From an uncultured archaeon (GTDB lineage Archaea > EX4484-52 > LFW-46), in assembly GCA_902384675.1 (NCBI GenBank), contig CABMCT010000056.1, positions 1-32,890 of the forward strand: 32,890 nucleotides of DNA, given 5' to 3'. Below the pieces are notes generated by a model. That model made no database searches and was not told the origin of the DNA. It worked only from the letters and a program-made list of their open reading frames with translations. The translations under genes and the position numbers were made by a program. This document shows, piece after piece, positions 9,416-12,629 of the stretch (the first letter of the stretch is position 1; each line of letters begins with the position of its first letter).

Positions 9416-10513
9416 TTATCTTATTACCTCAATGCCAAGCGCACTGCTTAGGCTTGCGCTGTGCGAAACCTTTGCGGATTCGGCAGCCTGCGGACCAAGG
9501 ACGTATTGCGAGCGGACGCCTGTTATAATTGTTATTACTCTTATTGCGCCCTTCATGTTCTCGTCGATTCTTGCTCCCCAGATTGTCTGGGCTCCTGCGT
9601 CGAGGTTTCTTGCGACAAACTCCCCGATTTCGTTAATTTCCTCGAGTTTCAGGTCGTTTCCTCCTGTGATGTGCACCAATGCGCCTGTTGCGCCCTTGTA
9701 GTCCACGTCAAGAAGCGGGTTTGCCATTGCCTTCTCTACAGCCTCTCTTGCACGCGCCGCGCTTGAAGACTCCGCAACTCCGATCATTGCCACACCGCCG
9801 TTTCTCATTATTGCTTTTACGTCAGCGTAGTCGAGGTTTACAAGAGACGGTGTTGATATTGTCTCTGTAATTCCTTTTATCATTGTCACGATAATCTCGT
9901 CTGCGACCGCGAATGCCTGCTGAAGCGGCATGTTTCCTGCGATTTCGACCAACTTGTCGTTTTCAATCACGATTACTGTGTCGCAGTGCTGGCGGAGCCT
10001 TGCAAGACCGTCTTCTGCCTTGTGGATTCTTGCTCCTTCGATTTTGAAAGGCATTGTGCATACTCCGATGACGATTGCACCCTGGGCCTTTGCGACTTCT
10101 GCTACAACAGGTGCAGAGCCTGTTCCGGTCCCGCCTCCCATTTCCGAGACAAGGAATACCATGTCTGTTCCGCGAAGAGCTTCTCTTATTTCGTTGATGG
10201 ATTCTTCAGCGGCCTGTTTTCCGACATTCGGGTATCCTCCTGCCCCAAGGCCTTTTGTAAGTTCCTGGCCTATAAGGATTTTCCTGTCAGCATTTATGGT
10301 CTTGAGGTGTTTCATGTCTGTGTTAAGCGCGATTGTCTCTGCTCCGATAATGCCAACAGATGAAAGCCTGTTGATTGCGTTGGTACCCATACCACCGGCT
10401 CCGACGACCATTATTTTGGCGTCTGTTGAGCCAACGAATTCGTCCAGCGACTTATTGCTAAGTGCGCTCTTGCTTGCTTGCCTTGAAACGGCGCTTTGTA
10501 TGATAGATTCCAT
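9416..10513 (-). CDS. ftsZ: Cell division protein FtsZ
   Basis: Tubulin/FtsZ signature GGGTGTGSAPVVAEVAK; VGAGGMGTNAINRL; NTDMKHLK. Confidence 0.97.
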   Translation of the reverse strand: MESIIQSAVSRQASKSALSNKSLDEFVGSTDAKIMVVGAGGMGTNAINRLSSVGIIGAETIALNTDMKHLKTINADRKILIGQELTKGLGAGGYPNVGKQAAEESINEIREALRGTDMVFLVSEMGGGTGTGSAPVVAEVAKAQGAIVIGVCTMPFKIEGARIHKAEDGLARLRQHCDTVIVIENDKLVEIAGNMPLQQAFAVADEIIVTMIKGITETISTPSLVNLDYADVKAIMRNGGVAMIGVAESSSAARAREAVEKAMANPLLDVDYKGATGALVHITGGNDLKLEEINEIGEFVARNLDAGAQTIWGARIDENMKGAIRVITIITGVRSQYVLGPQAAESAKVSHSASLSSALGIEVIR

Positions 10514-10707
10514 TTAAATCCCCTTCTTACCAAATACCTTGAGCCTAGCACAATTACACTTTTTATTCGTGCGCTGCACACATTGCGACATCATTGCTAA
10601 GGTTTTTAGTTAATCAATATTCATCCTCATCGTCGGCGAATCGCGGTTGCAACGATTTATCGCGTTTCTCCTCCTCATTTGTATTGGCTTTGACATCGTT
10701 GGTTCAC

Positions 10708-10793
10708 TTTCCAGTTTGGGTTTGATACCCAATTAGCTTTGCTGCGACCTAACTGGAAAAGATAGAAAATTGCGCAAATTTGCGCAATTTTCT
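10708..10793. repeat. Inverted repeats upstream of ftsZ: TTTCCAGTT/AACTGGAAA enclosing TTGGGT-TTGAT-ACCCAA, plus a 30-bp perfect palindrome (10764-10793)
   Basis: AGAAAATTGCGCAAATTTGCGCAATTTTCT equals its own reverse complement. Confidence 0.75.
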
Positions 10794-10828
10794 TTATTTG
10801 TATCGTTCAATATATACATCGCATAAAC

Positions 10829-10844
10829 GAAAAGTATATTTATA
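10829..10844 (+). promoter_or_regulatory. BRE/TATA-like element (CGAAAAG-TATATTTATA) upstream of the hairpin cluster
   Basis: Purine-rich BRE-like stretch and A/T-rich TATA box about 25 bp before the putative RNA start. Confidence 0.45.
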
Positions 10845-10865: not shown

Positions 10866-11120
10866 CAACAGAGCAACTTGAAAGATTCGCCAAAAATCTT
10901 TTGAGCAAACTTAACACTAACACAACAGAAAATCTAACTTTAATTGATTGCCAAATCAATTAAATGCCAAAAACTTTTACAGCCAATTTGATTAAAATTG
11001 CGCCAACAATTTTAAACAAAATTTATTTTTGAAAACAGGTGGTGTTTAACATTGCAATTCGCGCCAACGAATTGTGGTTTTAAACGCCAATTTAAAACCA
11101 AAAATGTTAAACTTTTTCTT
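10866..11120 (+). ncRNA. Candidate structured ncRNA: five hairpins with shared [C/T]GCCAA loop, terminal three-way junction, T5 tract
   Basis: H0 10877-10905, H1 10939-10964, H2 10987-11020, H3 11055-11074, H4 11075-11100; outer stem GTTTAACATT (11044-11053)/AATGTTAAAC (11103-11112); TTTTT at 11113-11117. Confidence 0.6.
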
Positions 11121-11354
11121 GTATATTTCTTTTGTGCGCCTGAGTATATATAGGTTTTGTTAATACTATGTATATTTTACTATATCTATTTTATAAAATA
11201 TATTTCTGCTGCTGCTGTTTTTCAGAACGTCGGCTTCCGACAAAGTAGTTCCTTACTGTTAGTAAAAAAGACCTCTTCTTCCATTGGAAATGGCTTGGTT
11301 TCGGGTGGAGAATCAATAACATAAGACGCTTTTTTAAGCAATATCTGGAATTCA

Positions 11355-12629
11355 TTAAGATGTCATTTTTGATTCTTCAAATGCCCGCATTCCATCGCGC
11401 AAAGTATCGTATAATTTGAGGCATTCCTCATACATTTTTTGTCCGGAAGCAATTTTATCAGCATTTTTATCGGCCAGTTTTATCGGGGCAACCGACCTGT
11501 CGAATTGAAGCATTTCATCATCGCTCATGTCACTTAGCAGCCCGTCCGCTTCAATAATTTCTCCCACCATGCCACCGCCCACAAGCGTTGGCAGGCCAAT
11601 GGCCACATCATTAACGCCACACCGCAAAACCTGCTCGTGATACTGCCCGATTGGAAGAACGCTTACTTCATTTGCCATAATGCACTTTATTGCCTCTGCA
11701 GTCAGGATACCGCCGGTTACAGGAGTTTCTCCGGTTAATTGTGTAAGCCGGGGTGCTTCCGATTTGAAGTCGGTCAGGATTTTATAATAATCGGCTATAG
11801 CCCTGGCAGGGTCTCCTCCTCTGGCGCGTTCGCTGGCTTGGGCACAGCTCTTTGCCGACGCACCCCCTATGAGAAATCTTTTCTCAATTGCAACTGCATC
11901 TTCACCATGGCCGCCTATGATAGCACAGCTCGCATCATCCATCGAGAACTTAAATCTTTGCCCATAAAGCTTGTACAGCCTGTTGACTTCAGGCATTGTT
12001 GCGGTGGAAATCGCTTTTTTGGCCTTGACTTCGGGTGCGTTTCTCTTCTTTGCAATATATTTATACAACTTATTGACCTGGCGCAATAAAATGAGGGTGG
12101 GATTGCCCTGCATAAGGTAAATGCTGTTTGGCGAGACTACAAGGTCCATTACAGCGTCTTTTAAAGCAGGCTTCTGGTTGTGTACTGTAAGGCGATATCG
12201 GGGGTCCACCCCTTCTTCAGCTGCCTTTTTAATAAAATCAGGGTCTGTTTTTAGCGCGGTTTCGATATTGACTCCTTTAAAATTCACCCAGAACTGCGAG
12301 TAAGCCGATTCCCGGAGATTACTAAAGAAATCATACCTTTCAGTCTCATCGAACTCGTAAATCCTGTCAACATCGATATCAACAATGTTCACTCCGGGAT
12401 GATGATGGTATTTATGCTGCTCTTCTTTTGCGCTCATGGCAGCGAGTTTAGCGGGTATGTCTTTTTTCTTTCGCGTTGTCCCGACAATCCTTTTAATCTG
12501 GGGCATGGTTTTAAGCACATCAACCATTTCAAGGGCGTTGCCCCCAAGATTAGTCGTAATTTGTCCCGGATTGTATGGCAGTTCCACTCCGCTGTATTGG
12601 CTTGCAAAAGCATTTCCTTTTTCTGGCAT
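11355..12629 (-). CDS. Divergent lactate/malate dehydrogenase superfamily-like protein
   Basis: GNPTLILLRQV (Asn of LDH NP motif), EVNR (cf. DxxR), GGHGEDAV (cf. catalytic G-x-H-G-D), C-terminal IGLPTLVGGGMVGEIIEADGLLSDMSDDEMLQFDRSVAPIK; good RBS GGAGGG upstream. Confidence 0.6.
   Translation of the reverse strand: MPEKGNAFASQYSGVELPYNPGQITTNLGGNALEMVDVLKTMPQIKRIVGTTRKKKDIPAKLAAMSAKEEQHKYHHHPGVNIVDIDVDRIYEFDETERYDFFSNLRESAYSQFWVNFKGVNIETALKTDPDFIKKAAEEGVDPRYRLTVHNQKPALKDAVMDLVVSPNSIYLMQGNPTLILLRQVNKLYKYIAKKRNAPEVKAKKAISTATMPEVNRLYKLYGQRFKFSMDDASCAIIGGHGEDAVAIEKRFLIGGASAKSCAQASERARGGDPARAIADYYKILTDFKSEAPRLTQLTGETPVTGGILTAEAIKCIMANEVSVLPIGQYHEQVLRCGVNDVAIGLPTLVGGGMVGEIIEADGLLSDMSDDEMLQFDRSVAPIKLADKNADKIASGQKMYEECLKLYDTLRDGMRAFEESKMTS

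Follow-up and report, generated by a model that had tools for sequence, protein, structure and literature searches.

A conserved ftsZ-linked hairpin array with lineage-specific loop motifs in archaea

Described multi-hairpin systems and the ftsZ-upstream array

In CsrB/CsrC and RsmX/Y/Z, several hairpins with unrelated stems carry one short motif, GGA, which also occurs unpaired, is present in many copies per RNA and is bound by CsrA/RsmE. CopA/CopT (IncFII) and Inc RNA/RepZ (IncI) are antisense pairs with overlapping opposite promoters and a YUNR U-turn on one strand, and their loops pair as CGCCAA/UUGGCG. ColE1 RNAI/RNAII are multi-hairpin overlapping transcripts beside an origin, and archaeal oriC regions with ORB repeats combine an AT-rich tract with adjoining direct repeats of the Orc box; we know of no archaeal origin with a hairpin-array RNA.

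The window, a 32,890-nt stretch of DNA from an uncultured archaeon (GenBank:CABMCT010000056.1), contains a hairpin array next to ftsZ that shares features with each of these systems. As in CsrB/CsrC and RsmX/Y/Z, hairpins with unrelated stems and unpaired stretches present one short motif in many copies; however, the motif is C-rich (GCC[C]AA, GUCCAA or UCCCAA), and since the GGA/CsrA feature is missing, the array was not filed as a CsrB/RsmZ member. Unlike these decoys, it is archaeal and tied to ftsZ, its motif switches between lineages, and its partner is putative. The loop pair CGCCAA/UUGGCG is the same as that of the plasmid antisense pairs, and here, too, YUNR is confined to one strand and promoter-like sites oppose each other, but the array is chromosomal with 3-8 loops of identical sequence, and its minus-strand transcript is putative; no rep gene was seen nearby and no similar DNA was found in plasmids. 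It resembles ColE1 RNAI/RNAII in that putative overlapping multi-hairpin transcripts would lie beside a putative origin, except that its plus-strand RNA does not seem to extend past the array. As in archaeal oriC, an AT-rich tract and Orc-box-like direct repeats adjoin many of the loci, whereas no orc1 is adjacent and the boxes are absent in several families.

Rfam gave no match at gathering thresholds for the array of the window and 12 related loci, and no Csr/Rsm family was among the matches up to E = 1; the sub-threshold matches (Leu_leader at 27 of 50 bits, others with E > 0.2) were judged to be due to chance and rejected. No earlier description was found in a literature search, most subscription journals and bioRxiv preprints lying outside its scope.

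The array of the window and covariation of its stems

The ftsZ gene (9416..10513, minus strand), identified by Pfam matches to Tubulin/FtsZ (2.5e-46) and FtsZ_C, is the divergent neighbour of the array in the compared genomes. The array occupies the AT-rich spacer between ftsZ and a 424-codon gene (11355-12629, minus) for which no Pfam match was obtained. On the ftsZ side, the BRE/TATA element recognized in the sequence-only reading is a promoter-like site directed into the array (P+, ACGAAAAGTATATTTATA, 10827..10844, plus), and it is followed by the candidate noncoding RNA (10866..11120, plus), whose predicted ends enclose seven GCCAA copies and a U-rich terminus. All five hairpins with a [C/T]GCCAA loop were present as originally described between 10877 and 11100 on the plus strand: hairpin 1 (10877..10905) has 11 bp and the loop CGCCAAA, hairpin 2 (10939..10964) has a GCCA loop closed by a U-A pair (UGCCAA if opened), and hairpins 3 (10987..11020), 4 (11055..11074) and 5 (11075..11100) have the loop CGCCAA. 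The last two are enclosed by a helix (11044-11053/11103-11112, plus) with TTTTT following at 11113; the three-way junction so formed is the minimum free energy structure on the minus strand, but on the plus strand it is one of two competing folds, and in the minimum free energy structure a longer hairpin 4 wins. Features missed before were also found, namely two unpaired GCCAA copies (10966..10970 and 10982..10986, plus), an inward-facing promoter-like site at the end of the array away from ftsZ (P-, AACAAAACCTATATATACTC, 11143..11162, minus), Orc-box-like repeats in relatives and the conserved linkage to ftsZ. A 22-codon ORF at 10965 inside the array was truncated in the related genome G001 as judged by eye, and a coding reading was rejected.

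A 22-position hairpin model, scanned unfiltered across the entire window, ranked the five hairpins at the top (E 2.4e-5 to 2e-3; next match 0.43); the model was built partly from these hairpins, and the ranking thus shows their uniqueness in the window and is no independent discovery. When a 310-nt region was searched without reference to the motif, four non-overlapping hairpins with a common loop 4-mer were found, while 1000 shuffles gave at most three, once. Folding stability against shuffled controls had been set beforehand as a refuting test, and an excess was found on the plus strand (-54.4 kcal/mol, z = -4.6, 0/200 shuffles as stable); for the minus strand z was -2.3 and 5/200 shuffles were as stable.

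The single other member of the genus that was compared (G001) had the element in the same place with 73% identity. In hairpin 1, 11/11 pairs were kept, several of them differing (CTCGAATGAAC/GTTTGTTTGAG); hairpin 2 was nearly unchanged; hairpin 3 carried two compensatory pair changes, both sides being altered; hairpin 5 was broken up by an insertion; and one pair of the enclosing helix was broken. The P+ TATA region, a 25-nt unpaired stretch and P- were conserved. A second structured stretch was noticed beside ftsZ at 10700-10795, in which the stem AGAAAATTGCGC/GCGCAATTTTCT was replaced by AGAAATTGCCT/AGGCAATTTCT and the stem TTCCAGTT/AACTGGAA by TTTCAGTTTG/CAAACTGAAA in G001, with conservation of a GCTGCGA loop stretch; it is probably an ftsZ leader on the minus strand.

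Covariation was evaluated with 36 [C/T]GCCAA hairpins from 12 genomes, picked by loop sequence inside the locus. Pairing was seen in 84% of 288 cells versus 45% with shuffled arms, the covariation score was 0.905 versus 0.222 (reached by 0/500 shuffles), and changes on both sides occurred in 8/8 pairs. When the partner arm was shifted by one to three columns, pairing fell to 37-52%; without positional choice (41 instances), 80% were paired versus 44% when shuffled, and these motifs taken from the opposite strand gave 37% versus 39%. At least three hairpins with a common loop 4-mer were present in 16/87 ftsZ-upstream loci versus 0/435 shuffles, and the shared cores were all C-rich (GCCA, GCCC, CCCA, CCAA or TCCC). 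A lack of covariation, also named beforehand as a refuting outcome, was thus not observed. Computationally, these results establish the existence of a hairpin array that is conserved, linked to ftsZ and covarying, and whose loops are specific to lineages; relatives lend strong support to the proposal of a structured noncoding RNA in which the stems are unrelated and one loop is conserved.

Distribution and lineage-specific loop motifs

In the order to which the window belongs (34 genomes), nearly all loci read had the array divergent from ftsZ, with a BRE/TATA-like site, in many cases a TTAGAA-like start, and then a row of repeated motifs; in family f6 (L049, L050) its presence was unclear. 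Homologous ftsZ loci with names came from metagenome-assembled genomes labelled Nanohalarchaeota, Aenigmatarchaeota, Woesearchaeota and DPANN group archaeon. Other archaeal families supplied 60 more ftsZ loci; the array was found in many of these (for example L122, L124, L138-L141, L144, L148, L149, L153-L155, L159, L176, L177 and the 14 loci of family f24, whose genomes measure about 0.7-1.1 Mb) and was absent from others (for example L143, L147, L151, L157, L179 and L180). A genome-wide hairpin search in ten CGCCAA genomes gave the best matches at the ftsZ locus; equally good single matches elsewhere occurred only in G305 and G032, the one in G032 lying within an ORF, and most of the other single hairpins inspected were also within genes. 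No motif cluster away from the ftsZ locus was detected in 63% of genome G003.

Several neighbouring features were also observed. The match in G305 (L201, C2:20358-20379, minus) is a 22-nt hairpin that recurs unchanged in that genome's own ftsZ array; it lies within a larger inverted repeat directly before a 73-codon ribbon-helix-helix (RHH)-like ORF, for which no Pfam match was obtained. In L018, an archaeal RNase P RNA gene (2320-2601) is separated by a few hundred bases from the motif array on the ftsZ side. In the f24 loci L161-L168, TGTTCA/TGAACA palindromes are repeated between the array and a gatC-like downstream gene, and sampled stretches of G203 contained no comparable cluster of at least five in 300 bp.

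Within a genome, nearly all copies of the loop motif belonged to one class, and the class differed between lineages. Over 50 genomes, within-genome identity of motif class was 0.78 versus 0.35 when permuted, and the effect was also seen inside f24 (0.83 versus 0.56) and f7 (0.72 versus 0.38). Four classes were distinguished: 1) GCCA in f1, f5 and several others, 2) GCCC in f4, most of f24 and part of f7, 3) GUCC in other members of f7, L122 and L124, and 4) UCCC in four f24 genomes, L128 and L173. Family f2 had 7-8 GCCC copies within 180 nt, mostly outside stable hairpins, and none on the other strand, with a maximum of 3-4 in shuffles; family f3 is a weaker case, in which the 4-5 copies were sometimes equalled by shuffles. 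Since copy number is kept in f2 where the stems are lost, the motif appears to matter more than the stem, and it looks like the functional unit.

Transcription of the array and its possible role

Promoter-like sites face inward at both ends of the array and at a similar distance from it. In 32 loci, with related genomes counted as independent, the inward (plus) orientation beat the minus orientation on the ftsZ-side flank (p = 1.2e-4, the matrix being partly circular, as it was trained on plus-strand sites that included some of these), and on the far side the inward-facing site was favoured (p = 2.7e-5, independent of matrix training). The earlier argument that G-U pairs favour the plus strand held in the CGCCAA class (19 G-U versus 7 A-C pairs, p = 0.0035, kinship uncorrected), but a broader symmetric count was even (32 versus 36); the same count was also even for RNase P RNAs (15 versus 20), and it was dropped as having no power. 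Transcription on the plus strand is likely. The published RNA-seq paper on Nanoarchaeum equitans does not mention ftsZ.

The reading that we prefer, with a probability of roughly 45%, is that a divergently transcribed noncoding RNA acts as a decoy, offering one loop in many copies to a reader that co-evolves with it. We infer that the locus would give rise to an RNA of ~200-270 nt, whose BRE/TATA promoter sits in one intergenic region with ftsZ and would direct transcription away from that gene; one short C-rich motif (CGCCAA here) would recur in the RNA 3-8 times, mostly in hairpin loops whose stems can have any sequence. The loops would most likely be bound by a reader acting in trans, probably an RNA-binding protein, which the RNA would titrate in step with ftsZ expression. 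Motif identity within genomes is as expected from co-evolution with a shared reader, a reader of many loop copies is preferred because copy number is kept even without the stem, and the conserved P+ and the stronger fold z on the plus strand count in the same direction. The multi-hairpin binding-loop idea of the sequence-only reading, an interpretation that as a whole was partly supported, fits best because the loops change in concert and many copies are kept without hairpins. In the one genome sampled (G203), the motif was not enriched before start codons (GCCCAA 1 versus 0), and thus no mRNA targets were found there. Against a decoy, a purely trans-acting RNA would not need conserved linkage to ftsZ, and the inward-facing P- is left unexplained.

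Both of these points would be accounted for if P+ and P- transcribed the array convergently, giving a sense/antisense pair whose complementary arrays (GCC[C]AA versus UUGG[G]C loops) meet by kissing loops and control ftsZ or a nearby process in the manner of CopA/CopT or RNAI/RNAII on plasmids, as a cis system would explain constant linkage and both inward sites would be in use. YUNR, found generally in antisense systems that work through loop-loop contacts (PMC4485353), was present in 56/104 minus-strand loops versus 18 expected and in none of the plus-strand loops, several lineages being without it. However, antisense loops match automatically and need no single sequence in all loops, hairpins are few in f2 and f3, the plus strand has the G-U excess in the CGCCAA class, and P- could be a TATA-like sequence that arose by chance, the relatives in which it recurs not being independent. 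We consider such a pair unlikely, albeit deserving of serious attention.

It is considerably less probable that the array belongs to a replication origin, in which initiation would involve the RNA or single-stranded DNA hairpins, with Orc1/Cdc6 boxes and an AT-rich stretch next to them. Past the array, TTTCCTGTGGAA-like boxes numbered 38 in the same orientation and 9 in reverse versus 0.74 expected in 87 loci, boxes of this kind also occur close to orc1 in G000, G003 and G004, and a conserved AT-rich tract separates array and boxes. Yet the window has one box (11279-11289) where 0.75 are expected by chance, f24 has few, and orc1 was found not beside the array but on other contigs or far off (in complete f24 genomes, at a distance of roughly one third to two fifths of the genome); GC skew showed no clear inflection, and promoter conservation points to RNA. 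Loci with same-orientation boxes past the array include L014, L015, L016, L020, L036, L041, L128 and L173, among others.

The constant linkage, together with the direction of P- toward ftsZ, would also suit a minus-strand array that forms the 5′ leader of a long ftsZ mRNA, untranslated and regulating ftsZ expression in cis, but P+ and a nearer ftsZ TATA-like site stand between the array and ftsZ, and in f24 ftsZ looks leaderless, with a promoter about 36 nt before the ATG (by eye), which makes this a poor candidate. Chance palindromes or AT-rich terminator hairpins with no common function, to which the AT-richness of the spacer might point, are contradicted by the shared-loop, covariation and flat opposite-strand results and are scarcely credible.

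Little is known about the control of division in DPANN archaea, whose genomes are very small. A probable structured RNA that has stayed next to ftsZ despite deep divergence, and whose loops change sequence together, points to an RNA-binding regulator or an antisense circuit. In its widest form, which we hold tentatively and at somewhat less than even odds, the array may represent a widespread, undescribed class of archaeal RNA that accompanies ftsZ throughout DPANN-type lineages, whose many loops would form a lineage-specific code rewritten with a co-evolving partner and which would couple cell division, and perhaps the start of replication, to an RNA-based regulator. The loop offers a direct handle for fishing out the regulator, and its concerted change is a clean natural experiment in the co-evolution of an RNA and its partner.
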